From: Wenjunlia vitaminophila DSM 41686
GTDB taxonomy: Bacteria; Actinomycetota; Actinomycetes; Streptomycetales; Streptomycetaceae
Assembly: GCF_000380165.1 (NCBI RefSeq)
Contig: NZ_KB904634.1
Coordinates: 193,051 to 257,050, forward strand
Length of the DNA stretch: 64,000 bases
Reading direction: 5' to 3'
Within the stretch, counting starts at the first letter, position 1, and the number at the start of each line of letters is the position of its first letter. Below the pieces are notes generated by a model. It saw only the letters and a program-made list of their open reading frames with translations, searched no databases and had not been told where the DNA came from. Position numbers and translations under genes: made by a program. Shown piece after piece: positions 18,097-46,700 of the stretch.

Positions 18097-18930
18097 GTGC
18101 GTACCTCCGACCGGGTCGCCGCCGCACTGGCCATGGCCGCGGTAGCCACCGTCGCCCTCCTGGCCGGCGGCTGTTCCCCGGAGCCCACCACGAAGACGCC
18201 GCCGCGACCCGCGGTCGAACCGCCCCCCACGGGCGGCGCGTTCGACTACCAGATCACCGAGGGCTACCCGCCGGCCGACGGTGTCCGGGTGGTCGCCCGC
18301 GACCGCAGGGACCGGCCGGCGCCCGGCGCCTACTCCATCTGCTACGTCAACGCCTTCCAGGCGCAGCCCGACGAGCTGGCCTGGTGGCGGCGGAACCATC
18401 CCGACCTGCTGCTCAGGGACGAGCAGGGCTCCCTGGTGATCGACCGCGACTGGGACGAGGCGTTGCTCGACCTGTCCACCGCGGCGAAGCGCGGACGCGT
18501 CGCCACGGTGGTGGGCGGCTGGACCGACGGCTGCGCCAGCAACGGTTTCCAGGCCGTGGAGTTCGACAACCTGGACTCGTACTCCCGCTCAGGGGGTCGG
18601 CTCACCCAGGAGCACGCCGCCGACATGGCCCGACTGCTGGTGCGCCGAGCCCACCTGCGCGGCCTCGCCGCCGCCCAGAAGAACACCGTTGAGCTGCTCG
18701 ACCGGCGTTCCCGGATCGGCTTCGACTTCGCGGTGGTCGAGGACTGCGCGCGGTACCGGGAGTGCGGCGCCTACCTCGACGCCTACCCCGGCCGGGTGTT
18801 GGACGTGGAGTACCGCACGGTGGACTTCCGCCGGGCGTGCGACACCTGGGGAGAACGGCTCGCGGTGGTCCAGCGGGACCTCGCGGTGTCCACCCCGGGT
18901 GACCCCGGTTACGTTCACCGCTCCTGCTGA
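18097..18930 (+). CDS. Secreted lipoprotein with GH114-like (endo-alpha-1,4-polygalactosaminidase) domain
   Basis: Protein of 277 aa with a lipoprotein signal peptide ending in LLAGGC (C26), then a TIM-barrel domain of the GH114/TM1410 type. Recognisable blocks are FDYQITEGYPPADGVRVVARDRRDRPAPGAYSICYVNAFQAQP, LVIDRDWDEALLDLS, FQAVEFDNLDSYSRS (acidic pair in the active-site strand), GLAAAQKNTVELL, FDFAVVEDCARYRECGAYLDAYPGRVLDVEY. Members cleave galactosaminoglycans; the substrate here is inferred only from the family. Its 3' end overlaps the convergent transporter gene by 16 bp. Confidence 0.82.
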   Translation: MRTSDRVAAALAMAAVATVALLAGGCSPEPTTKTPPRPAVEPPPTGGAFDYQITEGYPPADGVRVVARDRRDRPAPGAYSICYVNAFQAQPDELAWWRRNHPDLLLRDEQGSLVIDRDWDEALLDLSTAAKRGRVATVVGGWTDGCASNGFQAVEFDNLDSYSRSGGRLTQEHAADMARLLVRRAHLRGLAAAQKNTVELLDRRSRIGFDFAVVEDCARYRECGAYLDAYPGRVLDVEYRTVDFRRACDTWGERLAVVQRDLAVSTPGDPGYVHRSC

Positions 18931-19910
18931 CCCGGGGCGGCCCGGGTCGCGGCGACCTCCTTCCGGCCGGGGGCCAGGGCCAGCGCCGCGGTCCTGAGCT
19001 GCGGACCGACCAGGATCACCGCGTTGGCGGCCAGCACCACCGCGACCCCGACGAAGGCCAGCGCCGACCACGAGTAGTCCTCGAAGATCGTCGAAAGCAG
19101 CAGGGACACCAGCGGGAAGACCACGGTGGCGAACGCGGCGCGGTCCGGGCCGATCCAGCCGAGCAGGGTGAGGTAGGCGACGTAGGCGAACGCGGAGCCG
19201 AACAGTGCGAGGTAGGCGAGTCCGGCGAGGTACGACCAACTCATCTCCACGGTGAACCGCTGGCCGGTGGCCAGACAGCCGAGGGAGGTGAACAGCGAGC
19301 CGTAGAGCATGCTCCACGCGGTGGCCTGCACCACCGGCAGCCCCGCCTGGTGGTTCTTGGCCGAGACGATGTTCCCCAGGGAGAACGAGGCGGTGCCGCC
19401 CACCCCCAGCAGCACCCCGATGGCCAGGGTGTCCGAGCCGCCCGCCGCGGAGATCTCCTGCCAGAACACCAACACGAGCCCCAGCACCCCGGAGCCGGCC
19501 GCGGCGACCACGGACAGCGTGACCTTGCGTCCGAGGAACGCCACCCCGCCGAGGATGTTGAAGCCCACCGACAGGGCGAAGACGATGGAGACCAGGCCGG
19601 ACACCATGTGGTCGGAGGCGTAGTAGAAGAGCACGTAGTTGCCGCAGTACTGGAGCAGGCCGACCAGGGCGAACCGCAGGTGCGTGGTCCCCGGGAACCG
19701 CAACGGCAACCGGCGGGCGAAGCACCACGCGAACATGCACGCCTGGGCGAGCAGGAAGCGGTAGGCCACCGACACCGCCGGGTCCACACTGCCGAGTTGG
19801 AGCTGGATGCCGATCCAGGTGGAGCCCCACAACGCCACGATCAGCGCGAACAGCAGGACGGGCAGGGTCTTGCGCTGCACCGTGGGCCCGGATGCGGGGG
19901 CGCCGGCCAT
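18915..19910 (-). CDS. EamA/DMT-family transporter
   Basis: Membrane protein of 331 aa with ten hydrophobic segments in two EamA repeats. The first opens with LLFALIVALWGSTWIGIQLQLGSVDPAVSVAYRF (the GSTW motif of the DMT superfamily) and the second with GVLLGVGGTASFSLGNIVSAKNHQ. Members export amino acids and related metabolites. It follows the four-gene 4-hydroxyphenylglycine operon on the same strand after 122 bp, so it is the likely exporter of its product, although that link is inference. The ATG at 19910 has AGGAGAG upstream. Its last 16 bp overlap the opposing lipoprotein gene. Confidence 0.88.
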   Translation of the reverse strand: MAGAPASGPTVQRKTLPVLLFALIVALWGSTWIGIQLQLGSVDPAVSVAYRFLLAQACMFAWCFARRLPLRFPGTTHLRFALVGLLQYCGNYVLFYYASDHMVSGLVSIVFALSVGFNILGGVAFLGRKVTLSVVAAAGSGVLGLVLVFWQEISAAGGSDTLAIGVLLGVGGTASFSLGNIVSAKNHQAGLPVVQATAWSMLYGSLFTSLGCLATGQRFTVEMSWSYLAGLAYLALFGSAFAYVAYLTLLGWIGPDRAAFATVVFPLVSLLLSTIFEDYSWSALAFVGVAVVLAANAVILVGPQLRTAALALAPGRKEVAATRAAPGQQER

Positions 19911-20032
19911 CAACTCTCCTTCGTTACTGGCCCGATGACGGTGAACGGGCGTGGCGTCAGGGGTGGTGCGGGGGGTTGCTCAGTGCCGCGGGCGGTGCCC
20001 CGGGTGGCGCGGCCCGCGGCGGCGGGCGGCCG

Positions 20033-21355
20033 TCATCCGACGGCCAGGCGCTCGTGCACCAGGGCGGCGAGCCGGTCCAGGCCCTCGTCGATCTCGCTCG
20101 GGGTCAACGAGCTGCAAGCCAGCCTGAGCTGGGTGCGTCCGCCGTCGCCCTCGTAGAAGTGGCTCATCGGCGTCCACAGGACCCCGTGCCGCCGTGCCGA
20201 GTGCTCCAGCAGCGTATCGTCCGCCGCGAAGGGCACCGTGACCACCACGAAGAACCCTCCGGCCGGCGTGTTCCAGCTCACCGTCGGGACCCCGGCGAAC
20301 CGCTGCCGCAGCCCGTCGAGGACCCGGGCGAGGTTCTTCCGGTAGATCTCGGCCTCCCGGGCGCTGGCCCGCAGCAGGCTGCCGTCGTGCTCGAGCAGCT
20401 TGCCCGCGGCGACCGCCTGGCTCACCGGCGAGGTGTTCACCGTGAGCATGCTCTTGACCTTTGACAGCTCGTCGGCGAACAGGGACTCCGTGCCGTCCGC
20501 GGCCACGACCCGCTGGTCGGCGACGGCGAAGCCGATCCTGGCCCCGGGGAAGCAGGTCTTGGCGAGCGAACCCAGGTAGACGACGCCGCGTTCGGTGTCG
20601 AGCGCCTTGAGCGTGGGGGGGTGGGTCCCGTCGGCGGAGAACAGGCCGTAGGGGTTGTCCTCGAGCAGCAGCACCCCCTCGTCGGCGGCGACCCGCAGCA
20701 GCTCCCGGCGGGTCGCCGCCGACAGGCTGACCCCGGCCGGGTTGGAGAAGTCCGGCACCAGGTACAGCGCCCGGGGGCGGACGCCGGCCTGCCTGGCCGT
20801 GCCGATCTTCGCCCGGAGGTCGTCCAGGTCCACCCCGGTGCCGTCCTCGCGCACCGGCAGCACCGGCATGTCGAGCAGCCGGGCCGCCCCGGTGAGCCCG
20901 ACGTAGGTCGGGGAGACGGCCAGGACGGCGTCCCGTTCGTCCGCGCGCAGGGCACGCAGCGTCAGGAAGAGCGCCTCCTGGCAGCCCACGGTCACCACGA
21001 TGGACTCCGGGTCCACCTCGATCCCCTCGTCCACCGCCAGGTTCCTCGCGATCAGGTGGTGGATGACGCCCTTGGTGCGGCCGTACTGGAACAGGGTGCG
21101 GCGCACCCGCTCGTCGTCGTAGTGCAGGTCCCGCGCCAGGTGGTCGCAGAAGCGGTCCAGGTACCGGTGGAGGTCCGCGACGTCGAACCCCGCCTCGCTG
21201 GGCCGACCGGGCGCGAACGAGACGGCGTCGGGGAACCGGTTGGCCACCTCGTTGAGGAAGTTCATCGACAGCAGGGCCGGATCGCCGAGCGACGGGTGCA
21301 GGTCGTGCAGGTGGAGGCGCCCGGCGGCCACGGCCGGCTCGACACGGCTGGTCAT
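20033..21355 (-). CDS. hpgT: 4-Hydroxyphenylglycine aminotransferase (HpgT-type)
   Basis: PLP-dependent class I aminotransferase of 440 aa that would convert 4-hydroxyphenylglyoxylate to 4-hydroxyphenylglycine (Hpg). It carries sequence typical of HpgT: ALLSMNFLNEVANRFPDAV, LFQYGRTKGVIHHLIARNLA, IVVTVGCQEALFLTLRAL, YLVPDFSNPAGVSLS, LEDNPYGLF, and the Schiff-base lysine in YLGSLAKTCFPGARIGF (K266). The C-terminal WNTPAGGFFVVVTVPF and GVLWTPMSHFY also fit. Its ATG overlaps the stop of the dioxygenase gene (ATGA). The specific assignment leans on the two upstream genes, which make the matching keto acid. Confidence 0.85.
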   Translation of the reverse strand: MTSRVEPAVAAGRLHLHDLHPSLGDPALLSMNFLNEVANRFPDAVSFAPGRPSEAGFDVADLHRYLDRFCDHLARDLHYDDERVRRTLFQYGRTKGVIHHLIARNLAVDEGIEVDPESIVVTVGCQEALFLTLRALRADERDAVLAVSPTYVGLTGAARLLDMPVLPVREDGTGVDLDDLRAKIGTARQAGVRPRALYLVPDFSNPAGVSLSAATRRELLRVAADEGVLLLEDNPYGLFSADGTHPPTLKALDTERGVVYLGSLAKTCFPGARIGFAVADQRVVAADGTESLFADELSKVKSMLTVNTSPVSQAVAAGKLLEHDGSLLRASAREAEIYRKNLARVLDGLRQRFAGVPTVSWNTPAGGFFVVVTVPFAADDTLLEHSARRHGVLWTPMSHFYEGDGGRTQLRLACSSLTPSEIDEGLDRLAALVHERLAVG

Positions 21356-22266
21356 GCGGTCGGGCCCGCCCACGTCTGCGGGCAGTAGCGCGGGTCGGTG
21401 TAGTCCGGGTTGCCCTGCGCGTCGCGGCGCACCACGTGGTCGTGGTTGTAGCTGAGCACCGACCCGTCGGCCAGGGGGTACCGCTGCCAACGGTTGTCGC
21501 CGTCCTGGAGGTGCAGGGAGATGGCCCGACGGGGCCGGTCGCTGCGGTTGGCTCCGCTGCCGTGGTAGGTCTTGCAGTGGTGGAAGCTCATGTGTCCCCG
21601 GGGGATCACCATCGGGACCTTGGTCACCTCGGCCCCGTTGTGCTCGGCGTTGGCGGCGAGCATGGCCTCCAGCTCGGACCGGTCCCGGTCGGCGAAGTGC
21701 CGGGTCACCGAGTCGTCCGCGCCGATCTCCTTCCACTGGTGACTGCCGTCCACCATGGTGATGGTGCCCATCTCCTCGGTGCAGTCGTGGAACGGTATGA
21801 AGGCGGTGAGCATCCGCTCCGAGGTGCTGGTGGACCAGTAGTGCTTGTCGAAGTGCCAGGGCACGATGTTGCTCTGCTCCTCGGGCCGCGGCGGCTTGTA
21901 GATCATCGTGGCCTGGAAGACCCGTATCGCCTCGGCGCCGGCCAGGCGGGCCGCCACCGCGCCGATCAAGGGCTTGGTGAGGACGCGGCGGATGGCGTCC
22001 ACCTCGACGTGCACGTAGTCGTTGTGCCGCTGTACCTCGCCGTGCTCCGGGGTCCAGTAGGCGATGCGCGGGGGGTGGGTGGGCAGCGGGTGGTCGCGGT
22101 GGCCGGCGTAGAAGTCGTCGCTGGCCCGGGTCAGGGCGTCCACCTCGTCATCGGTGAGCAGCTTCTTGCTCAGGTACCAGCCGTGTTCCTGGTAGAAGCG
22201 CACGTCCTCGTCGGTGGGCAGCAGGTCGAGTTCGGTGTCGGTGAGCACGAACGGGTTCGTCGTCAT
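21352..22266 (-). CDS. Phytanoyl-CoA dioxygenase (PhyH)-family Fe(II)/2-oxoglutarate oxygenase
   Basis: Protein of 304 aa with a PhyH-type double-stranded beta-helix. The iron ligands are visible as the HxD of IVPWHFDKHYW and the distal His in MSFHHCKTYHGSGANRS, followed by RPRRAISLHLQ, whose Arg should bind 2-oxoglutarate. The N-terminus (EDVRFYQEHGWYLSKKLLTDDEVDAL) is the usual PhyH opening. It sits between the 4-hydroxymandelate oxidase and the Hpg aminotransferase with ATGA overlaps on both sides, so it is made with the pathway; an oxygenase is not needed to make Hpg. The substrate is unknown: Hpg, a pathway intermediate, or a further amino acid are possible. Confidence 0.85.
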   Translation of the reverse strand: MTTNPFVLTDTELDLLPTDEDVRFYQEHGWYLSKKLLTDDEVDALTRASDDFYAGHRDHPLPTHPPRIAYWTPEHGEVQRHNDYVHVEVDAIRRVLTKPLIGAVAARLAGAEAIRVFQATMIYKPPRPEEQSNIVPWHFDKHYWSTSTSERMLTAFIPFHDCTEEMGTITMVDGSHQWKEIGADDSVTRHFADRDRSELEAMLAANAEHNGAEVTKVPMVIPRGHMSFHHCKTYHGSGANRSDRPRRAISLHLQDGDNRWQRYPLADGSVLSYNHDHVVRRDAQGNPDYTDPRYCPQTWAGPTA

Positions 22267-23489
22267 CGGGGTTCCTCCGTGGATGCCCCGCCCTCCGGGC
22301 GGACGGGGGACGAGATCGGTTCCCAGCGCGCCCGGGGCGGTGCGTCGGGGGTGTGGCACGGCCCGTTGACCAGCCGCAGGCGCCGGACGGCGGACGGGTC
22401 GGCGCAGCCGGACAGGGCCATGGCCTCGCGCAGTTCCTCGTCGAGCAGCGACAGCGCGGTACGCACCCCCTCCTGCCCACCCGCGGCCAGGCCCCACAGG
22501 GCGGGGCGGCCGATCAGCACCCCGCTGGCGCCCAGCGCCAGGGCCTTGAGCACGTCGGTCCCGTGGCGCACCCCGCTGTCCAGCAGCAGGGCGCACCGCC
22601 CGGCGACCGCGTCGCGCACCGCGGGGAGGGCGTCGACGGAGGCCACCGCGCCGTCGAACTGTCGGCCGCCGTGGTTGGACACGACCAGGGCGGCGACGCC
22701 CAGGTCGGCTGCCCGGTCGGCGTCGTCGGGGTGGAGCACTCCCTTGAGGATCAGCGGCAGCCGGGTCCGCTCCCGCAGTCGGGCCAGGTCGTCCCAGCTC
22801 AGGGTCGGGTCGAAGGCGGAGCTCGTGTGGTCGGCGACGGCGGACGCCCCGGCCCGGCGGTCCTGGGGTCCGCGGGCGACCTCGGGGCTGAGGTTGACCG
22901 CGCTGACGCCGACCGGCAGGGCGAAGTCGTTGCGGATGTCCCGCAGCCGCCGGCCCATCCGGGGGACGTCCACGGTGACCATCAGCGCCCGGCACCCGCT
23001 GTCCTCGGCCCGCTGGACCAGGTCGTGCACGAGCCCCCGGTCCCGGAGCCAGTAGAGCTGGAACCAGGGCGTGCCGCCGAGCGCGGTGATGTCCTCGATG
23101 CGCTGGCTGCTGAGGGTGCTGATGGTGAACGGGACCCCGGCGGCTGCCGCGGCCCCGGCGGTGGCCAGTTCTCCCCGCGGGTGCAGCATCCGCTGGTAGG
23201 CCATGGGTGCGATGGCCAGGGGGAGCCGGGCGCGGACGCCGACCAGGTCCCACGCCCCGGGGCCCTCGGGCTGGCCGGCGAGCACCCGGGGCACCGCGCG
23301 CAGCCGGTCGAAGGCGGCCCGGTTGCCGGCGAGGGCGGACTCGGTGCCGCTGCCGCCGCTGACGAAGTCCCACACGTCGCGGGGCAGTGCCCGTCTGGCG
23401 GCGTCGGCGAGGTCGTCCAGACGCAGGGCGCGCCCGACGGCGTCGGGGACGGGCGGGGAGGGGGTGACGGCGGCCGCGTCGGGGGTCAC
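22263..23489 (-). CDS. hmo: 4-Hydroxymandelate oxidase (FMN-dependent alpha-hydroxy acid oxidase)
   Basis: FMN enzyme of 408 aa in the lactate/glycolate/mandelate oxidase family, here predicted to oxidise 4-hydroxymandelate to 4-hydroxyphenylglyoxylate. Motifs in order: WDFVSGGSGTESALAGNR, PLAIAPMAYQRMLHPRGE, FTISTLSSQRIEDI, FQLYWLRDRGL, MVTVDVPRMGRRLRDIRNDF, LPLILKGVLHPDDA (FMN-site Lys), and VVSNHGGRQFDGAVASVDAL, which holds the catalytic His and substrate-binding Arg. GTG at 23489 overlaps the hmaS stop (GTGA) and its own stop overlaps the next ATG. The gene follows hmaS directly, as in glycopeptide-type Hpg pathways. Confidence 0.88.
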   Translation of the reverse strand: MTPDAAAVTPSPPVPDAVGRALRLDDLADAARRALPRDVWDFVSGGSGTESALAGNRAAFDRLRAVPRVLAGQPEGPGAWDLVGVRARLPLAIAPMAYQRMLHPRGELATAGAAAAAGVPFTISTLSSQRIEDITALGGTPWFQLYWLRDRGLVHDLVQRAEDSGCRALMVTVDVPRMGRRLRDIRNDFALPVGVSAVNLSPEVARGPQDRRAGASAVADHTSSAFDPTLSWDDLARLRERTRLPLILKGVLHPDDADRAADLGVAALVVSNHGGRQFDGAVASVDALPAVRDAVAGRCALLLDSGVRHGTDVLKALALGASGVLIGRPALWGLAAGGQEGVRTALSLLDEELREAMALSGCADPSAVRRLRLVNGPCHTPDAPPRARWEPISSPVRPEGGASTEEPR

Positions 23490-24562
23490 GCCGGGGTTCC
23501 CTGGGCCCTGAGCCGCTCGGCCTCCACGGCCTCGTAGAGCGCCTTGATGTTGCCGCTGCCGAAGGTCCGCGCCCCGCACCGTTCGATGACCTCGAAGAAC
23601 AGGGTGCCGCGCGGGTGGGTGGAACGGGTGAAGATCTGGAAGAGCTGACCGTCGTGGTCCTCGTCGGCCAGGACGTTCAGGTCGCGGAGCTGCTCCACGT
23701 CGTGGGCGACCAGTTCGAGGCGCCCGCGCATCAGGTCGTAGTAGGCGTCCGGGGTGCTCAGGAACCGCACCCCCGCCTCTCGCAGCGTCCCCACGGCCCC
23801 GACGACGTCGTCGGTGCGGAACGCCAGGTGCTGGACGCCGGGGCCGCCGTGGTCCCGGAGGAACTCGTCGATCTGTCCGGGGGCGGCGGAGGTGTCCGGC
23901 TCGATCAGGGTCAGCACCACCTCACCCGCGGCGCTGCGCACCACCTTGGAGTTCATCGCCTGGCGGCCGACGGCTATGTGCTCGGTGAAGATCGTCGTGA
24001 AGCCGAGGACCGTCTCGTAGAACCGCACGGTCGGTTCGAGCTGCCCGGGTTCCAGGCACACCGCGAGGTGGTCCAGGGCGTTGAGCAGGTGGGTCCGCGG
24101 TTGGTCCTGGAGGTCCGGAACCGGGGTGAAGCCCGGCGGCAGCCCGTCCGGGGTGTCCGCGGACCGCTGCACCAGGGTGTGCGTGACGTCCCCGAAACCG
24201 CTGATGGTGGCGGTGACGCTGCCGTCGGCGAGGGTGTCGGGGCCGGCCACCACCCGGCCGCCGGCGCGGGTCGCCTCCCGCACCGCCGCGGGGACGTCTC
24301 CGGTGGTCAGGGCGATGTCGGCGACACCGTTCCCATGGGCCAGGACGTAGCGGCTGGCGGGGTGGTCCTGGCTGAGTCCCCTGGTCAGCACCAGTGAGAT
24401 GGCTCCCTGACGCAGCGCGAGGGAGTAGCTGTCCCCCTCGGCCCCCCGTGATCCGGCCCAGCCGACCGGCTGGAATCCGTACCGTGCGACCAGGTCGGCT
24501 CCGGTGGCGGCGATGTCGGTGACGAAGAACTCGATGTGTCCGAGCCCCAGATCTAATGGCAT
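23486..24562 (-). CDS. hmaS: 4-Hydroxymandelate synthase
   Basis: Non-haem iron dioxygenase of 358 aa that converts 4-hydroxyphenylpyruvate to 4-hydroxymandelate, the first step of Hpg synthesis. It belongs to the two-domain HPPD superfamily; the iron ligands are H165 (NALDHLAVCL), H245 (PGVQHLAFRT) and E324 (FFEVIERCG). It is HmaS rather than the tyrosine-catabolic HPPD because the segment AMNSKVVRSAAGEVVLTLIEPD has the LTLIEPD of mandelate synthases instead of the FPINEP of HPPD, and because the oxidase and aminotransferase of the same pathway follow. First gene of the operon. The ATG at 24562 has GGAGGAG upstream. Confidence 0.9.
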   Translation of the reverse strand: MPLDLGLGHIEFFVTDIAATGADLVARYGFQPVGWAGSRGAEGDSYSLALRQGAISLVLTRGLSQDHPASRYVLAHGNGVADIALTTGDVPAAVREATRAGGRVVAGPDTLADGSVTATISGFGDVTHTLVQRSADTPDGLPPGFTPVPDLQDQPRTHLLNALDHLAVCLEPGQLEPTVRFYETVLGFTTIFTEHIAVGRQAMNSKVVRSAAGEVVLTLIEPDTSAAPGQIDEFLRDHGGPGVQHLAFRTDDVVGAVGTLREAGVRFLSTPDAYYDLMRGRLELVAHDVEQLRDLNVLADEDHDGQLFQIFTRSTHPRGTLFFEVIERCGARTFGSGNIKALYEAVEAERLRAQGTPA

Positions 24563-24911
24563 GCGCAAAACCGCTCTCCTCCAGGCGATGCGTCGGGCAC
24601 CGGTCGGAGAGGGAAAGGACATGCCGCGATGGCGGCGTGGCCGGTACCGATCCCCCATTCGCCGCCGACGCAGTGCTCGTGGATCTCACGTGGTGTGTCG
24701 TAACGACAGCGGGCAGTACTCAGGAATCCTGGGCCTGGGCGGTCCGGAGTGTCAATGTGACAAGATCACGACCAATATTGACCAGAAGTCAACTCAAACA
24801 TGAACCGCATATTTATGCACCCATGTCAGTTTTGTTGCTTTGCAAAGTTGCCGGTCGTTACGGTGCTCCCTGCCACTTCCGCTGACACATTTTCAGCCAA
24901 GGGAGCGAACG
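24563..24911. promoter_or_regulatory. Divergent control region between hmaS and the GH89 gene
   Basis: Gene-free 349 bp whose right half is strikingly AT-rich for this genome. It contains two overlapping short inverted repeats: TGTCA-ATG-TGACA (24749-24761) and GTGA-N5-TCAC (24756-24768), followed by CAATATTG (24772-24779). These look like a regulator-binding site shared by the two divergent transcripts. Clear -10/-35 pairs could not be fixed with confidence. No coding sequence is seen. Confidence 0.55.
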
Positions 24912-36880: not shown

Positions 36881-37828
36881 TCAGGGGCGGTCGGTGAGGT
36901 AGCCGCCCATGGTGCGGAAGTACGCGAGGGCGTCGAGGTCCCTGCCGTCCTCGGTGCGCACCCGGCGCAGCACCAGTCCGGGGTTCCGCCCGCGGTGGGC
37001 GTCCGCCCCGGTCACGATGACCACCCCGTCGTCCTCCGGGATGAAGATCCGGCCGGGGGTACCGCCGTACGCCTGGCGGGAGACCCGGGCTGACAGCACC
37101 CGCAGCCGCTGCCCCCGGTGGTGGGTGAACGCGTTGGGATAGGGGTCGGACTGGGCCCTGACCAGGCGTTCGATGGCGGCGGCCGGCCAGGTCCAGTCGA
37201 TCAGGCTGTCCCTCAGGGCCCGCTTGTGGAAGAAGCTGGCCCTGCCGCGGTCCTGGGGGGTCCAGTCGGTGCGCCCGGAGGCGATCAGTGCCAGCGACTC
37301 GGTGACGATCGGACCGATCAGGTCGCAGGTGCGGTGGAACAGGTCGGTGGCGGTGTCCTCGGGCCCCACCGGAACGGCGCGTTGCAGCACGATGTCACCG
37401 GCGTCGAGTTCGTCGTTCATCAGGTGCGCGGTGACCCCGACCTCGGGCTCGCCGTTGATCAGTGCCCAGATCAGGGGGGAGAAGCCCGCGTAGGCGGGCA
37501 GCAGCGAGTCGTGCACGTTGAGGGTGCCGTGCCGGGGCAGGGTGTGGATGGCGGGCGGCAGCCAGGTGCGCCAGTTGTTGGCGACGATGAGGTCCAGGTC
37601 CGCCGCCCTGAGCGCCGCCATCAGTTCCTCGTCGTCGGGGCGGTTCCGCAGTAGCACCGGGACTCCGTGGTCGCGGGCGAGGTCGGCGACCGAGTCGTCC
37701 CAGATCTTCTCGTAGGCGTGGTCGCTCCTGGGATGGGTGACCACGAGGACCACCTGGTGCCCGGACCCGAGCAGGGCCGTCAGAGTGCGGTGTCCCCAGG
37801 TCTGGTAGCCGAACAGGGCGACGCGCAT
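36881..37828 (-). CDS. N5-hydroxyornithine formyltransferase of siderophore synthesis
   Basis: Protein of 315 aa related to methionyl-tRNA formyltransferase. The catalytic Asn/His are in LNVHDSLLPAYAGFSP and the Asp in MNDELDAGDIVLQRAV; a C-terminal OB-like domain follows. In coelichelin synthesis such an enzyme transfers a formyl group from 10-formyl-tetrahydrofolate to N5-hydroxyornithine. Its place back-to-back with the ornithine monooxygenase, sharing an iron box, supports that role rather than initiator-tRNA formylation. The ATG at 37828 has AGGAG upstream; the iron box lies 47-65 bp before it. Confidence 0.88.
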   Translation of the reverse strand: MRVALFGYQTWGHRTLTALLGSGHQVVLVVTHPRSDHAYEKIWDDSVADLARDHGVPVLLRNRPDDEELMAALRAADLDLIVANNWRTWLPPAIHTLPRHGTLNVHDSLLPAYAGFSPLIWALINGEPEVGVTAHLMNDELDAGDIVLQRAVPVGPEDTATDLFHRTCDLIGPIVTESLALIASGRTDWTPQDRGRASFFHKRALRDSLIDWTWPAAAIERLVRAQSDPYPNAFTHHRGQRLRVLSARVSRQAYGGTPGRIFIPEDDGVVIVTGADAHRGRNPGLVLRRVRTEDGRDLDALAYFRTMGGYLTDRP

Positions 37829-37874
37829 GAGGGGAACTCCTCGTTCCGGGAGGGGATTGACGATCCGCGTCAAG

Positions 37875-37893
37875 TTAAGCAAGCCTTACCTAA
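37875..37893. promoter_or_regulatory. DtxR/IdeR-type iron box, divergent formyltransferase/monooxygenase promoter
   Basis: The 19-mer TTAAGCAAGCCTTACCTAA, read on the minus strand as TTAGGTAAGGCTTGCTTAA, matches the IdeR/DmdR consensus TTAGGTTAGGCTAACCTAA at 15 of 19 positions. It lies between two divergent siderophore genes and should repress both when iron is sufficient. Confidence 0.8.
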
Positions 37894-37969
37894 CTAAGCA
37901 ATGCCCGGACGGCGTCGGCACGTTGGGACGGCCGCCGGGTTCCGGTGTCCGCCGAGCGATGGGACAGTC

Positions 37970-39292
37970 ATGTCAGCTCCTTCCGGCGGCGAGGTCGACG
38001 TCCACGACCTCGTCGGTGTCGGTTTCGGCCCCTCCAACCTCGCGTTGGCCGTCGCGGTCAGCGAGCACAACGCCCGGGTGGGGACGAGCGGGGCCGTCCG
38101 GGCGCGGTTCGTGGAGCGGCAGCGGGAGTTCGGCTGGCACCGGGGCATGCTGATCGACGACGCCACCATGCAGGTCTCGTTCCTCAAGGACCTGGTCACC
38201 CTGCGGAACCCGGCCAGCGACTTCAGCTTCCTGAGCTACCTGCACCAACGGGACCGGTTGGTGGACTTCATCAACCACAAGACGCTGTTCCCCCTTCGGG
38301 TGGAGTTCCACGACTACCTGCGGTGGGCCGCGGACCGGGTCTCCCCGGTGGTGGACTACGGCCACGAGGTGGTCGCGGTGGAACCCGCGGCGGAGGGGAC
38401 CTGCGTCGACGTGGTGGTCCGCGCGGCCGGATCGGCGGCGCCCGTCCGCCACCGGACGCGCAACCTGGTGATCGGCACCGGACTCGTCCCGCGGCTGCCG
38501 GACGGCGTGGTCCGCACCGACCGCGTCTGGCACACCAGTGAGCTGCTGCCCCGGATCGCCGAGCGCGCCGGCACCGCGCCCTCCCGGTTCGTGGTGGTGG
38601 GCGCCGGACAGAGCGCGGCGGAGGCGGTGGCGCACCTGCACCGGGAGTTCCCCCGGGCGGAGGTGTGCGCGGTGTTCTCCCGGTACGGCTACAGCCCCGC
38701 GGACGACTCGGCGTTCGCCAACCGGATCTTCGACCCGGAGGCGGTGGGGCTGTTCCACGCCGCTCCCGAGGAGGTGAAGGAGATGTTGCTGCGCTACCAC
38801 GGCAACACCAACTACTCGGTGGTGGACACCGACCTCATCGACGACCTGTACCGCCGGGTCTACCGGGAGAAGGTGCTGGGGACCGCACGGCTGCGGCTGT
38901 TCAACGTCGCCCGGCTCGCCGAGGTGGTGGACACCGGGTCGCGGGTGCGGGTCACGGTGGAGTCCAGCGCCACCGGGGCCACGACGGTGCTCGACGCGGA
39001 CGCGCTGGTCTGCTCGACCGGCTACCGTCCGATGGACCCGGGCCGGCTGCTCGGCCCGGCGGCGCGGCACTGCCACCGGGACGACGCCGGGCGGCTCGTG
39101 GTGGAACGGGACTACCGGGTGCGCACCGGGCCCGGACTGCGCTGCGGGATCTACCTCCAGGGCGGCACCGAGCACTCCCACGGCATCACCTCGTCGCTGC
39201 TGTCCAACACCGCGGTGCGGGTGGGCGAGATCCTGCGTTCCCTGCTGGACCGCCGACCGGCCCGCCGGCCCTACGCGATGGCCGGCGAGTAG
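37970..39292 (+). CDS. L-ornithine N5-monooxygenase
   Basis: Flavoprotein of 440 aa of the SidA/PvdA/CchB family, which hydroxylates the side-chain amine of ornithine with FAD, NADPH and O2, the first committed step to the hydroxamate. FAD site: DLVGVGFGPSNLALAVA (about 10-27). Substrate region: HRGMLIDDATMQVSFLKDLVTLRNPASDFSFLSYLHQRDRL. NADPH site: FVVVGAGQSAAEAVAHL. Later blocks: YSPADDSAFANRIFDPEAV, NTNYSVVDTDLIDDLYRRVY, LVCSTGYRPMDP and GTEHSHGITSSLLSNTAVR. Divergent from the formyltransferase with a shared iron box 77 bp upstream. Confidence 0.94.
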   Translation: MSAPSGGEVDVHDLVGVGFGPSNLALAVAVSEHNARVGTSGAVRARFVERQREFGWHRGMLIDDATMQVSFLKDLVTLRNPASDFSFLSYLHQRDRLVDFINHKTLFPLRVEFHDYLRWAADRVSPVVDYGHEVVAVEPAAEGTCVDVVVRAAGSAAPVRHRTRNLVIGTGLVPRLPDGVVRTDRVWHTSELLPRIAERAGTAPSRFVVVGAGQSAAEAVAHLHREFPRAEVCAVFSRYGYSPADDSAFANRIFDPEAVGLFHAAPEEVKEMLLRYHGNTNYSVVDTDLIDDLYRRVYREKVLGTARLRLFNVARLAEVVDTGSRVRVTVESSATGATTVLDADALVCSTGYRPMDPGRLLGPAARHCHRDDAGRLVVERDYRVRTGPGLRCGIYLQGGTEHSHGITSSLLSNTAVRVGEILRSLLDRRPARRPYAMAGE

Positions 39293-39340
39293 ACGAGCCG
39301 TCCTGGAGCGCAGCCGGTCCGGGGCGCCAAGCCGCCGGCC

Positions 39341-40237
39341 TCAGCCCGGCTCGGCCCCGTGGTGCCGGCCCATCGGCACCACCAGGGGGGTGCCGCTGAC
39401 CGGGTCGGCGGTGACCTGGCAACGCAGTCCGAAGACCGTCCGCACCAGCTCCGCGTCGATCACGTCGGCCGGGGGCCCCTGGGCCACGATGCCGCCGGAA
39501 CGCATGGCGATCACGTGATCGGCGTAGCGGCACGCCTGGTTGAGGTCGTGCAGGACCATCACCACGGTGCGGCCCTGTTGACGGTTGAGATCGACGATCA
39601 GGTCGAGCACGTCGATCTGGTGAGCCAGGTCCAGGAACGTGGTGGGCTCGTCGAGGAGGAGCACCTCGGTGCCCTGGGCGACCGCCATGGCGATCCAGGC
39701 GCGTTGCCGCTGGCCCCCGGAGAGCTCGTCCACCGGCCGTTCGGCGTGCTCCTCCATGGAGGTGGCGCGCAGTGCGCCGAGCACCGCCTCCTCGTCCGCG
39801 GCCGACCACTGCCGCCAGAGCGTCTGGTGCGGGGCGCGGCCCCGGCTCACCAGGTCGATGACGGTCAGTCCCGCGGGGGCCACCGGTGACTGCGGGAGGA
39901 TGCCGAGCTGGCGGGCCAGCCTGCGGGTGGGGATGGACGCCAGGGCCCGCCCGTCCAGGGTGACCGTGCCCGACCTCGGGGTGAGCAGCCGGGCCAGGGC
40001 CCGCAGCAGCGTGGACTTCCCGCAGGCGTTGGCGCCGACGATGACGCTGATCCGGCCCGGGGGCACCGCCAGGTCCAGGTCGTTCACCACGACCCGCCCG
40101 TCGTAGGCGAGCGTGAGGCCGGTGGCGCGCAGTTCCGCCCGGCCTCCCGCGCCACCCCGGTCGGGAGCACCGGCCCCGGGGCGACGCGGGTCGCCGGACG
40201 GGCGGGGGGAACCGCTGGACGCTGTCCCGGTGGTCAC
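39341..40237 (-). CDS. Iron-siderophore ABC transporter, ATP-binding protein
   Basis: FecE/FepC-type ATPase of 298 aa. Walker A is VGANACGKSTLLRAL, signature ELSGGQRQRAWIAMA, Walker B VLLLDEPTTFLDLAHQIDVL, and the switch His is in VMVLHDLNQACRYADHV. The N-terminal 35 residues are a Pro/Gly/Arg-rich extension. GTG at 40237 follows AGGAGG, which overlaps the end of the permease gene. It forms the importer with the two permeases and the binding lipoprotein and powers uptake of the ferric siderophore. Confidence 0.93.
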   Translation of the reverse strand: MTTGTASSGSPRPSGDPRRPGAGAPDRGGAGGRAELRATGLTLAYDGRVVVNDLDLAVPPGRISVIVGANACGKSTLLRALARLLTPRSGTVTLDGRALASIPTRRLARQLGILPQSPVAPAGLTVIDLVSRGRAPHQTLWRQWSAADEEAVLGALRATSMEEHAERPVDELSGGQRQRAWIAMAVAQGTEVLLLDEPTTFLDLAHQIDVLDLIVDLNRQQGRTVVMVLHDLNQACRYADHVIAMRSGGIVAQGPPADVIDAELVRTVFGLRCQVTADPVSGTPLVVPMGRHHGAEPG

Positions 40238-40239
40238 GA

Positions 40240-41316
40240 TCAGCCTCCTGAACCGGCACGGTTGGCACGGACGAGCAGCCAGAGCAGCAGGGGCGCGCCC
40301 AGCACCCCGGTGACCACGCCGACCGGCAGTTCGGTGCCCGGCAGCTCGCGGGCGACCAGGTCGCCGCAGAGCACCACCAGGGAGCCGGTGAGCGCGGAGG
40401 CCAGCAGCGGCGGGGCCGCGGTCCCGCACAGGCGCTGGGCGATCTGTGGCGAGGCCAGCGCCACGAAGGTGACCGGGCCCGCGGCGGCGGTACCGAAGGC
40501 GACCAAGGCGACGCCGGTCAGCAGCAGGGCGAGCCGGGCGGTCTGCACCGGGGTGCCGAGGCCCGTGGCCACCTCGTCCCCGAGTTGGAGGGTGCGCACC
40601 CAGTGGTGCAGCAGCAGCGCGACGGGGAACAGCAGGGCCACGGCGAGGGCGAGCGGGCGCACCTGGGTCCAGGTGCGCCCGTTGAGGTTGCCGACCAGCC
40701 ATCCCAGTGCCTTGTGCGCCTCGTGGATCTCGGCCTCGGTGAGCAGGTACTCCGTGGCGCTGGTGCACATCCAGGACATCCCGATGCCGACCAGGACGAT
40801 GCGGTAGCCGGTGGTGCCGCGGTTCCAGGCGAGCAGGTAGATGAGGGCGGCGACCAGCAACCCGCCGACGAGCCCCAGGGTCTGGGTGCCGAGACCAGGA
40901 CCGACCCCCAGCACCATCCCGGCGACCACCGCGGCGCCGGCACCCTGGGTGATACCGATCATGTCGGGGCTGGCCAGGGGGTTGCGGGTCAGGTTCTGGA
41001 ACAACGAGCCGGACAGTCCGAACGCGGCACCGGCGAGCAGCCCGACCAGCGCCCTGGGCAGGCGCAGCTCCCGGACGACCAGCAGGGTGGTCCGGTCGCC
41101 GGAACCCCACAGCGCGGGGATCACGTCGAGGACGGGCACGGACAGCCCGCCCCTGGCGACGCCGAGGCAGAAGACGGCGCCCACGGCGACCGCGAGGCCG
41201 GCGTTGGCCAGGAGCAGCCTGGGTCGCAGCACCACGGAGACCCGCGGGCGGGTCAGCCGGACCACGGTGCGGCCGGCGACCTCGCGGGTGGGGATCGGCT
41301 GCTGGGTCACGGTCAC
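40240..41316 (-). CDS. FecCD-family iron-siderophore permease
   Basis: Integral membrane permease of 358 aa with about nine or ten helices. FecCD blocks include RELRLPRALVGLLAGAAFGLSGSLFQNLTRNPLASPDMIGITQGAGAAVV and the cytoplasmic coupling loop ALVAFGTAAAGPVTFVALASPQIAQRL, ending ELPVGVVTGVLGAPLLLWLLVR. Starts at GTG 41316, overlapping the previous permease stop by 4 bp (GTGA); the ATPase follows after 2 bp. Second membrane half of the importer. Confidence 0.93.
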   Translation of the reverse strand: MTVTQQPIPTREVAGRTVVRLTRPRVSVVLRPRLLLANAGLAVAVGAVFCLGVARGGLSVPVLDVIPALWGSGDRTTLLVVRELRLPRALVGLLAGAAFGLSGSLFQNLTRNPLASPDMIGITQGAGAAVVAGMVLGVGPGLGTQTLGLVGGLLVAALIYLLAWNRGTTGYRIVLVGIGMSWMCTSATEYLLTEAEIHEAHKALGWLVGNLNGRTWTQVRPLALAVALLFPVALLLHHWVRTLQLGDEVATGLGTPVQTARLALLLTGVALVAFGTAAAGPVTFVALASPQIAQRLCGTAAPPLLASALTGSLVVLCGDLVARELPGTELPVGVVTGVLGAPLLLWLLVRANRAGSGG

Positions 41317-42455
41317 AGCTCCGCGAGTCGACGGCGGCGGACGAGCGCGATGAAGAACGGCCCACCGAGGAAGGCCATGACGATGCCGACGGCCATCTCC
41401 CCCGGCTGGGCGACGAGGCGGCCCAGGACGTCCGCGGCGAGCAGCAGGCCGGGGGCGATCACCATGGACAGCGGCAGCAGCCAGCGGTGGTCGGGGCCGA
41501 CGCCGGCACGAGCCGTCAGCGCCCTGGCGAGGTGCGGGACGACCAGGCCGACGAAGACCAGTGGCCCGACCACGGCGACCGCCCCGCCGGTGAGCAGCGT
41601 CACCGCCACGGCGCCCTGGACCCTGACCCAGCCCGTCCTGCGCCCCAGGGCGACCGCGACCTCGTCACCGAGCGCCAGGCTGTTCAGCGCCGGGGCCAGC
41701 GCCAGCGCCCCCAGGAGCCCGCACACCAGGAAGGGGGCCAGCCGCAGCACCACGGAGGTCTCCTGCCCGGCCAAGGACCCTGCCGCCCAGAACCGGTGAC
41801 GGTTCAGCGCCTCGGTGTCGGTGAGGGTCACCGCGCTGGTCAGCGAGTTGAGCATGGCGGTGACGGCCATCCCGGCGAGGGCCAGTTTGACCGGGGTCAT
41901 GCCGGTCCGGCCCACCCCGCCGAGCAGGTACACCAGGGCGCCGGCGGCCAGCGCCCCGGCGAACGCGAACCAGACGTAGCCGTAGAGGGAGCTGACGCCG
42001 AGCACCCCGACGGCGAGCACCACCGCGAACGAGGCGCCGCCGGTGACCCCGAGGATGCCGGGGTCGGCCAGGGGGTTGCGGGTCAACGCCTGCATCAACG
42101 TCCCGGAGACGCCGAGCGCGGCGCCGGCGCTGAGCCCGAGCAGGGTGCGCGGGACCCGCACCGACCGGACGACGGCCTCGACCTCCGGGTCGTGGGGGTC
42201 CACCAGCGCCTGCCACACGTCGCCGGGCGGGATGTGCCGGGCGCCCACGGCGAGGGAGAGCGCGCAGAGCAGGAGCAGCACGCCCGTGGCGCCCAGCAGC
42301 AGCGCCCAGAGTCGGCGCGTGGCCGGCCCCGGGGGGCCGGCGCGTTCGCGCCCGGAGGGTGGTTCCGTCACGTGCGACACGTCGTCACCGCCGCTGGCTC
42401 CCAGGTCAGATGGGGTGTCGTCGGAGGGTTCACGGTGGCGGGGGCGCTCGGTCAC
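41313..42455 (-). CDS. FecCD-family iron-siderophore permease
   Basis: Integral membrane permease of 380 aa, first gene of the leftward import operon. A hydrophilic N-terminus of about 45 residues precedes the helices. Family blocks: RVPRTLLGLSAGAALGVSGTLMQALTRNPLADPGILGVTGGASFAVV and GAVAVVGPLVFVGLVVPHLARAL, ending GEMAVGIVMAFLGGPFFIALVRRRR. GTG at 42455 has GGAAGGG just upstream, and an iron box lies 34 bp further up, shared with the divergent binding-protein gene. Confidence 0.93.
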   Translation of the reverse strand: MTERPRHREPSDDTPSDLGASGGDDVSHVTEPPSGRERAGPPGPATRRLWALLLGATGVLLLLCALSLAVGARHIPPGDVWQALVDPHDPEVEAVVRSVRVPRTLLGLSAGAALGVSGTLMQALTRNPLADPGILGVTGGASFAVVLAVGVLGVSSLYGYVWFAFAGALAAGALVYLLGGVGRTGMTPVKLALAGMAVTAMLNSLTSAVTLTDTEALNRHRFWAAGSLAGQETSVVLRLAPFLVCGLLGALALAPALNSLALGDEVAVALGRRTGWVRVQGAVAVTLLTGGAVAVVGPLVFVGLVVPHLARALTARAGVGPDHRWLLPLSMVIAPGLLLAADVLGRLVAQPGEMAVGIVMAFLGGPFFIALVRRRRLAEL

Positions 42456-43606: not shown

Positions 43607-43754
43607 CGGGCACCACCGTTACCCCCTCCCGTTGCCGGTGCCGGTGCCGGTGCCGGACGGCGCCGACGGGCCGCTCCCGGTCCGTTCGCGCGGGTGCCGT
43701 GCCGACGGCACCCCGATCCTCGGCCCCCACACTGCCGGAAAGGCGTGGTCACCC

Positions 43755-46700
43755 ATGTCCGAGAACGTGACGGCGCACCGCTGCGCGCGGGACCTGGAGC
43801 ACTGGCGGCGGCGACTCACCCCGCCGCCCCAGGAGTTGGCGCTGCCCACCGACCTCCCGCACCCGCGGGTCCCGGGGCGTCACCGCCGCCACCGCACCCT
43901 GCGACTTCCCGCCGGACTGTCCGCGTCGCTGTCCGCGTTCGCCGACGGCCGCGGGGCGACCGTGCCCGAGGTGCTGCTGGCCGCGTTCTGTGCCCTTCTG
44001 CACCGGTACTCGGGCGCGGCGGACATCACGGTGGCCGGTCCGGTGGACGACGCGCCCGGGGCCCAGGTGCTGCCGCTGCGGCTGGACCTGGGTGGCCGGC
44101 CGTGCCTGGGGGAGGTGGTGCGCAGGGCCGTTGGCTGCCGCGACGAGGCCCGCCGGCACGCCGCCGTGACGCTGGACGCCCTGGTGGAGGAGCTGGAGCC
44201 GGAGCCCACCCGCGGCGGCGCCCGACTGTGCCACGTCGGCTTCGCGGCCCCGGACACCAACCCCCTGGACCTGGTGCTGACCGTGGTCGTCGGCCAGGGG
44301 GGTCACACCCGTCTGGGGTTGCGGTACCGCCAGGACCTGTTCCTGGACGCCACCGCCGACCGGGTGCTGGGCCACCTGCGGACCCTGCTCGCCGACGGGC
44401 TCGCCCGGCCCGAGGTGCCGGTTGCCGACCTGGAGGTGCTGCCGGAGGCCGAGCGGGAGCTGATCCTCACCGGCTGGAACGACACCGCGCACACCGTCCC
44501 GGCCACCACCCTGCCCGCCCTGTTCGAGTCGCGGGTGGCCGCGGCACCCCGGGACGTCGCCCTGGTCCTCGGGGAAGCCGAACTGAGCTACGCGGAGCTG
44601 AACGCGCGGTCCAACCGTCTGGCGCACGCGCTGATCGCCCGCGGTGTCGGCCCGGAGCGGGTGGTCGCCCTCGCCCTGCCCCGCTCCCCCGACCTGGTCG
44701 TCGCCGAACTGGCCGTGCTCAAGGCCGGCGGCGCCTACCTGCCGATCGACCCGGAACACCCCGCGGACAGGATCGCCTTCCAACTCGCCGACGCCGCCCC
44801 GCTGTGCCTGGTCACCACCACCGAACTGGGTCCGTCGGTCCCCCGCGCCGAGGGGGTCACCCGGCTGCTCCTCGACGCCCCCGACACCGTGGCGGAGTTG
44901 GCCGACCGCTCCACCGCCGACCCCGACGACACCGACCGCGGCGTGCCGCTGACCGTGCACAACGCCGCCTACGTGATCTACACCTCCGGCTCCACCGGCC
45001 GGCCCAAGGGGGTGGTCCTCTCCCACTCGGGCGTGGCCAAGCTGGTGGCCACCCAGACCGAGCGGCTCGGCGTCGGACCGCACTCCCGGGTGCTCCAGTT
45101 CGCCTCGCCCAGCTTCGACGTGGCGTTCTGGGACCTGTGCCTGGGGCTGCTCTCCGGTGGCCGGCTCGTCATGGTCCCGTCCGAGCTGCGCTTCCCCGGG
45201 GCGGAGCTCGCCGACTACGCACGGGCGCACGGTGCCACGTTCATGATCCTTCCGCCGGCCCTGCTCGCCGCCCTCCCGGACCACGCCGCGCTCCCCGCGC
45301 CCGCCACCCTGCTCGCCGGCACCGAGCGGGTCTCCCCCGAACTGGTGGCCAGGTTCGCGCCCGGCCGGCGCATGTTCAACGCCTACGGGCCGACCGAGGC
45401 CACCGTCAACTCCACCCTCGGCGCCTGCGACCCGCGGGAGCCCACCGGGTCCACGGTGCCGATCGGCGTCCCCGACCCCGGCACCCGCGCCCATGTGCTG
45501 GACGCCGCGCTGAGGCCGGTGCCGGCCGGCGTGGTGGGCGAGCTCTACCTCGCCGGGGACGGGTTGGCGCGCGGCTACCTGCGGCGGCCCGGGCTCACCG
45601 CTGAACGGTTCGTGGCGAACCCCTTCGGCGCCCCGGGCGAGCGGCTGTACCGCACCGGCGACCTGGTGCGGTGGCGCGCCGACGGGCGGCTCGAGTTCGT
45701 CGGACGGGCCGACGACCAGGTGAAGATCCGCGGTTTCCGGGTGGAGCCCGGCGAGGTCGAGCACGTCCTGTCCCAGCACCCCCTGGTGGACCAGGTCGCG
45801 GTGGTCGCCAGGGAGGTCCGTCCCGGCGAACGGTGCCTCGCCGCGTACGTCGTCCCCGCGACCACCGCCCGCACCGAAGGACACCACGTCGGGGGCGGGG
45901 CAGAACGGGGCGCGGGCACCGGGGCGGACCGCGCGGACGGACGGGACCGGGACGCCGAGCACCGACAGGTGGACCAGTGGCGACGGACCCACGACCTGCT
46001 CTACGCCGCCGCCGGGTCCGAGAGGCTCCGCGAGAACTTCGCCGGTTGGAACAGCACCTACGACGGCCGCCCCATCCCGTTGCCCGAGATGCGGGACTGG
46101 CGCGCGGCCACGGTGCGGCGGATCGCCGCGCTGCGGCCCCGCCGGGTGCTGGAGATCGGCGTCGGCAGCGGCCTGGTCCTCGGCCAGATCGCGCCGCGGT
46201 GCGACAGCTACTGGGGGCTCGACGCCTCCGCGCAGGCCATCGCCTCGTTGCGGCGGCAACTCGCGGCGGAGCCCACGCTCAACGACCGGGTGGAGCTCCG
46301 TGCCCAGCCGGCGCACGACACCTCGGGCCTGCCCACCGGCTTCTTCGACACCGTGGTGGTCAACTCCGTCGTCCAGTACTTCCCCGGCGTGGAGTACCTG
46401 GTGGACGTGGTGCGGGCGGCGGTGGACCTGCTGGTGCCCGGCGGCGCCCTCTTCGTCGGGGACGTGCGGAACCTGCGGTTGCTGCGCTGTCTGCGGGCCG
46501 GCGTGGAGGCCGCGCGGAGCTCCAGGGACGTCACGGGCGACGCCGTCGAGCGTGCGGTGCGGTGGGAGGGTGAGCTCCTGCTGGACCCCGACCTGTTCCC
46601 CGCCCTCGGCGCGGCGCTCCCCACGGTGGCCGGCGTGGACCTGCGGATCAAGCGGGCCACGGCACACAACGAGCTGAGCCGCTACCGCTACGACGTGGTC

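Follow-up and report, generated by a model that had tools for sequence, protein, structure and literature searches.

A five-gene operon on the minus strand of a 64,000-nucleotide stretch of the genome of the soil bacterium Wenjunlia vitaminophila DSM 41686 (the stretch is hereafter the window) encodes the three enzymes of 4-hydroxyphenylglycine (Hpg) formation, namely 4-hydroxymandelate synthase (HmaS), 4-hydroxymandelate oxidase (Hmo) and the aminotransferase HpgT, together with a PhyH-family oxygenase and an EamA/DMT-family transporter. Here, we propose that this operon is probably a self-contained amino-acid pathway, in which the trio would make Hpg, PhyH would oxygenate Hpg or an intermediate, and the DMT carrier would export the free amino acid. 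Hpg enzymes are commonly read as the mark of a peptide antibiotic; the recurrence of an Hpg operon that possesses an oxygenase and a transporter and is free of nonribosomal peptide synthetase (NRPS) genes points to a small amino acid that is secreted and that would be missed by genome mining focused on NRPSs. A first-pass annotation of this DNA had suggested that free Hpg, or an oxidised form of it, may be produced and exported by the operon, and this suggestion is strengthened by the present results: HmaS appears not to form homogentisate, no Hpg-using NRPS could be read in the genome, the five-gene order recurs without an Hpg NRPS, and the transporter is confined to the operon. The identities of the genes, the operon structure, the type of HmaS, the PhyH active site, the PhyH-HmaS pairing, the restriction of the transporter and the lack of a readable Hpg code are supported by the sequence.

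Core enzymes and the proposed pathway

All five genes were found in the previously described order and place, and the first four are joined by 4-bp GTGA/ATGA overlaps. The first gene, for (S)-4-hydroxymandelate synthase HmaS (23486-24562), has an ATG start and the Shine-Dalgarno (SD) sequence AGGAGAG, and is followed by the genes for the FMN-dependent oxidase Hmo (22263-23489; GTG start, GTGA overlap with HmaS), the PhyH-family Fe(II)/2-oxoglutarate (2OG) oxygenase (21352-22266; ATG start, ATGA overlap with Hmo) and the HpgT-type aminotransferase dependent on pyridoxal phosphate (PLP) (20033-21355; ATG start, ATGA overlap with PhyH). The transporter, the candidate product exporter (18915-19910), has an ATG start and its own SD, AAGGAGAG; its gene starts 122 bp past the end of HpgT and is thus outside the overlap chain in this genome.

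The best Protein Data Bank (PDB) match of the operon HmaS is the HmaS of A. orientalis (2R5V, 382 bits), compared with 212 bits for 4-hydroxyphenylpyruvate dioxygenase (HPPD) of S. avermitilis (1T47). Residues that separate HmaS from HPPD have been described (PMC3720870). In the operon protein the corresponding motifs are LTLIEP and GNIKALYEA, whereas the two other full-length members of the superfamily in this genome, both of which are HPPD-type (C101:186290-187351 and C33:12923-13939), have PLNEP and GNFxALFEA. We take these motifs to be the separating residues. That the gene might instead encode a homogentisate-forming HPPD, with the operon serving tyrosine catabolism, is extremely improbable. 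Although the protein scores above the cut-off of the 4HPPD model TIGR01263 (349 bits in a profile search), HmaS is itself an HPPD homologue; this protein shows HmaS-type residues where its own HPPD paralogues show PLNEP and GNF, scores much higher against the HmaS structure than against the HPPD structure, and is clustered with Hmo and HpgT, and none of the adjacent genes encodes a homogentisate dioxygenase. The active-site residues were considered to rule out this reading, and the enzyme is predicted to form 4-hydroxymandelate, as first annotated.

The other two members of the trio are similarly assigned. The best PDB matches of Hmo are all 4-hydroxymandelate oxidases (5ZZP, 385 bits), with hydroxyacid oxidase 1 at 288 bits, and the protein matches FMN_dh (PF01070, 422 bits) and contains the SNHGGR motif. 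HpgT matches Aminotran_1_2 (PF00155, 110 bits) and has the lysine motif SLAKTCFPGAR; its closest relatives are 67-68% identical, some of which sit between HmaS/Hmo and NRPS genes with the Hpg code DIYHLGLLCK.

From these assignments we infer the reactions, the product, the substrate of PhyH and the direction of transport. HmaS would convert 4-hydroxyphenylpyruvate to (S)-4-hydroxymandelate, which Hmo would oxidise to 4-hydroxyphenylglyoxylate, and HpgT would transaminate the latter to L-4-hydroxyphenylglycine. The known Hpg pathway consists of these steps and has tyrosine as its amino donor, which returns 4-hydroxyphenylpyruvate to the cycle (PMC8773403); if the same holds here, 4-hydroxyphenylpyruvate would be regenerated and prephenate dehydrogenase would be needless. 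PhyH, with Fe(II) and 2OG, would place oxygen onto an intermediate or Hpg to give an oxygenated phenylglycine, ring hydroxylation being one guess for the site, and the DMT carrier would release the free oxygenated amino acid from the cell.

A PhyH oxygenase paired with HmaS

The oxygenase matches PF05721 (88.7 bits), and its H138-x-D140, H235 and R246/R247 are matched in an alignment with human PAHX and do not vary across 19 homologues. The nearest folds to its AlphaFold2 model (pLDDT 89) are SnoK/SnoN, MysH, Pro hydroxylase H11, GriE and EctD, which include the free-amino-acid hydroxylases GriE and H11. Judged by its HxD...H iron site, 2OG arginine and double-stranded beta-helix fold, PhyH is an intact Fe/2OG oxygenase. 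A halogenase of the SyrB2-like type, in which the Asp of HxD is replaced by Gly or Ala, was ruled out by the invariance of D140 in the 19 homologues.

The distribution of this protein was analysed in a panel of 294 genomes of the order, as well as in a scan of one genome per species (84,980 species) that yielded 258 relatives; the 80 best of these were taken further. Operon-type PhyH is present in 30 panel genomes (E<=1e-30), and identity drops sharply, from approximately 60% to 41%, outside the family. An HmaS gene lies on the same strand within 2.5 kb of PhyH in 108 of 110 distinct loci (the window excluded) and is immediately adjacent in 99 of them. The oxygenase had been regarded as an extra member of the operon; instead, it is an almost obligatory companion of HmaS throughout the Actinomycetota. 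In addition, HpgT with a neighbouring Hmo was found in or near the PhyH cluster in all 12 of the genomes tested that carry the ketosynthase (KS)-type cluster described below. Because of the PhyH-HmaS linkage and the retention of Hmo and HpgT in these clusters, the conserved unit, as judged from gene content, is one of four enzymes (HmaS, PhyH, Hmo and HpgT) and not three. By its occurrence in many actinobacteria, the pairing suggests that phenylglycine metabolism includes a fourth step not described so far.

It might be supposed that PhyH diverts 4-hydroxymandelate or 4-hydroxyphenylglyoxylate to a product other than an amino acid and that HpgT merely recycles tyrosine, which would agree with the tighter tie of PhyH to HmaS than to Hmo or HpgT. 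We regard this as unlikely, considering that Hmo and HpgT are kept with HmaS and PhyH in all the stand-alone operons as well as in the 12 KS-type genomes, and that clusters of the Streptomyces djakartensis type contain these four genes together with L-amino-acid ligases. In such clusters (L104:1679-13845; also L107, L108 and L178), three ATP-grasp ligases, a luciferase-like monooxygenase, an MFS protein and a flavin reductase lie upstream of HmaS-PhyH-TyrA-HpgT-Hmo. Two of the three ligases carry the L-amino-acid-ligase C-terminal domain, and the cluster is likely a small-peptide pathway in strains of the S. djakartensis/monashensis type; such ligases beside the same four genes are as expected if the product of the unit is a free amino acid.

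Most of the 110 PhyH loci are clusters with KS, AMP-ligase and E1-alpha/beta genes, many of which also contain DUF3050. The widespread form (L213 of Salinispora pacifica, L141, L139 and approximately 70 other loci) has the order KS, AMP-ligase, acyl carrier protein, KS, AMP-ligase, KS, HmaS, PhyH, DUF3050, E1-alpha, E1-beta, and the same cluster is also accompanied by an ABM-family monooxygenase and a phosphopantetheinyl transferase, with Hmo and HpgT further out. Two other loci have, directly upstream of PhyH-HmaS, genes for a small protein with no Pfam match and for an amino-acid decarboxylase dependent on PLP (L129:7366-9205 and L130:7386-9168), which suggests a decarboxylated (benzylamine-type) product. 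A PhyH-type cluster of Saccharothrix deserti (L187, open frame from base 2433) contains an adenylation (A) domain with the Hpg-like code DVLHLGLVWG.

The dedicated transporter and the proposed fate of the product

The order HmaS-Hmo-PhyH-HpgT-DMT was also found in Longimycelium tulufanense and four Streptomyces-type genomes (G049, G246, G275 and G037), and such recurrence, in genomes as remote as Longimycelium of the Pseudonocardiaceae, places it far beyond chance. The Longimycelium operon is 62% (HmaS), 65% (Hmo), 75% (PhyH), 73% (HpgT) and 71% (DMT) identical to that of the window, and the transporters of the other four are 43-46% identical. Three of these four have TyrA and a CHMI-family tautomerase after the operon; in this second lineage the tautomerase gene is located shortly downstream of DMT and TyrA (L118:14247-14609, L113:14011-14388 and L120:5616-5975), and its product might tautomerise 4-hydroxyphenylpyruvate.

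The transporter has two EamA repeats above the cut-off (PF00892, 81 bits). At E<=1e-45 it has matches in only five of the 294 panel genomes, the same five that have the stand-alone order, and each match is the fifth gene of this operon; hence, it represents a dedicated subfamily and not a chance neighbour. Export of the free amino acid is proposed because the readable NRPS modules of the genome include none with an Hpg code.

The NRPS content was examined through Stachelhaus codes obtained by A-domain alignment to GrsA PheA. NRPS modules lie on a handful of contigs in this genome (6.43 Mb, 111 contigs, 99% complete), and none of the readable A domains has an Hpg code (DxxHLGLLCK), some domains at contig ends being unreadable. 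As a positive control, the same procedure reads DIYHLGLLCK and DAYHLGLLCK in L251, L253 and L256, where Hpg trios lie among NRPS genes. A search of this genome with an Hpg A-domain protein was non-discriminating, all A domains matching at 45-62%.

The only NRPS in the window (43632-58613), 19 kb away, has the codes DVWILGAVN, DAWLFGLVAK, DM(E/W)NLGLINK and DVFVLGAVNK, none of which is Hpg-like; this point, like the absence of an adjacent NRPS, had been noted from the letters, and it is borne out by the code reading. Beside it (with 36881-42455) are an ornithine/lysine N-monooxygenase, a formyltransferase and iron-transport genes, and the cluster is probably one for a hydroxamate siderophore. 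With such genes on the same contig, the operon product could be thought of as a ligand or precursor for the siderophore; this is very unlikely, as the codes are not Hpg-like, unrelated genes lie in between, and the Longimycelium NRPS whose codes form a similar set, again not Hpg-like, is located on a different contig from the operon. The link was rejected on this lack of conserved linkage.

The main rival to a self-contained pathway is that the operon supplies Hpg or a modified Hpg to a remote assembly line, via an unrecognised A-domain code or a non-NRPS ligase, with the DMT protein otherwise employed. A modified Hpg might need a new code, the PhyH-bearing relatives are mostly within KS/AMP-ligase or ATP-grasp clusters, the Saccharothrix PhyH cluster has an Hpg-like code, and a 10-module NRPS whose relatives occur in G275 and S. 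nigrescens lies approximately 9 kb from the G246 operon. However, NRPSs of the latter type (>=70% identity) are present in approximately 30 of the 294 genomes, only two of which have a DMT-type operon, and are absent from the W. vitaminophila genome; the codes of W. vitaminophila and Longimycelium are not Hpg-like; the Longimycelium operon stands amid housekeeping genes; and the transporter is confined to stand-alone operons. On balance, supply to a remote assembly line appears rather improbable, and a link to the giant NRPS of G246 in particular was rejected, such NRPSs being common in genomes without the operon. The Longimycelium operon lies between cytochrome oxidase/CPBP and MoxR/DUF58 genes, the names of which we take from our own reading of the sequences. 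The G246 giant NRPS (G246:C59:1-20000, L298) and its relatives in G275 (L303 and L304) and S. nigrescens (L307 and L308) have the unusual repeated codes DALLIGSVVK and DVFSVAIVYK.

Several points weigh against the proposal that a free oxygenated amino acid is made and exported. NRRL S-337, S. endophytica and S. nigrescens carry HmaS-Hmo-PhyH-HpgT-TyrA without a DMT gene, DMT proteins are able to import, and the DMT gene is 122 bp downstream of HpgT here, though it overlaps HpgT by 4 bp in L113 and L118. Ring hydroxylation by 2OG enzymes is rare, and PhyH specificity is not readable from sequence. In the 111-contig assembly, contig ends truncate a few A domains (at the start of C35 and the end of C61), whose codes are not fully readable; the absence of an Hpg code appears strong but not absolute. 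Finally, although it had been asked whether an NRPS is consistently absent beside such operons, and no Hpg-coded one was found near any of the five others, an NRPS of other specificity is close to that of G246.

Evolution and comparison with known systems

In quick maximum-likelihood trees (SH-aLRT support only), the HmaS and HpgT of the window and Longimycelium group with NRPS-type genes (L251 and L253), and their Hmo also falls on the NRPS-type side; the first-pass annotation is amended in that the window trio belongs to the NRPS-type lineage of these genes. The HmaS-Hmo-HpgT trio of G049, G246, G275 and G037 forms another lineage, whereas the PhyH sequences from the nine stand-alone operons all fall into a single clade (support 97). 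This suggests that the Hpg trio has been exchanged for an NRPS-type trio while PhyH stayed one lineage, and the simplest reading of the trees is that PhyH, and probably the transporter too, define the pathway. As a single PhyH lineage is combined with two different trios, the substrate of PhyH is presumably something that both of them produce.

The Hpg trio is known; what appears to be new is the unit of four enzymes, together with an operon that lacks an NRPS and has a dedicated transporter. Searches of a paper collection that includes only a minority of subscription papers retrieved none in which phytanoyl-CoA dioxygenase is paired with 4-hydroxymandelate synthase, or PhyH with hydroxymandelate, and found neither the unit and operon nor a match for the KS-type HmaS-PhyH cluster or its product; we know of no product for these KS/AMP-ligase/E1/DUF3050 clusters. 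A broader and somewhat more tentative proposal is that HmaS-PhyH-Hmo-HpgT constitutes an unrecognised four-enzyme route, shared by hundreds of Actinomycetota, whose product is an oxygenated phenylglycine that has yet to be described as a building block in nature. On this view, operons of the window's type may secrete this amino acid free (as an antimetabolite, signal or metal ligand) via a dedicated DMT exporter, and other lineages may feed it into KS-, ATP-grasp-ligase- or decarboxylase-based clusters.

The flanks of the operon are unrelated to it. A GH114 gene (18097-18930) converges on the transporter gene with a 16-bp overlap of their 3' ends (18915-18930), and an alpha-N-acetylglucosaminidase gene diverges from HmaS. 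The intergenic region upstream of the HmaS ATG (24563-24839), where the minus-strand operon promoter would be expected, gave no match in a sigma-70 consensus scan.

The operon can be compared with several known systems. With SnoK/SnoN, MysH, GriE, H11 and EctD its PhyH shares the fold, the HxD...H iron site and the 2OG arginine, but it is at most 26% identical to them in fold alignments and belongs to its own HmaS-tied clade. The transporter shares two EamA repeats with EamA/DMT metabolite exporters (YedA, 2A78-type) and scores 65 bits with the carboxylate/amino acid/amine transporter model; however, it is under the curated cut-off of each named exporter, and its subfamily is confined to the operon in the 294-genome panel. 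The KS/AMP-ligase/E1/DUF3050 clusters of Micromonospora, Salinispora, Kribbella and Catellatospora possess the same four enzymes, with PhyH 60-73% identical to that of the operon, but embed them in an assembly cluster, whereas the window operon has a transporter and no such cluster. Finally, the supply genes for Hpg in glycopeptide, calcium-dependent antibiotic (CDA) and related NRPS clusters encode the same three enzymes, and the window trio is of the same lineage as trios flanked by DIYHLGLLCK modules; the window operon differs in that no Hpg NRPS was found, PhyH lies between Hmo and HpgT, and a dedicated DMT gene follows.

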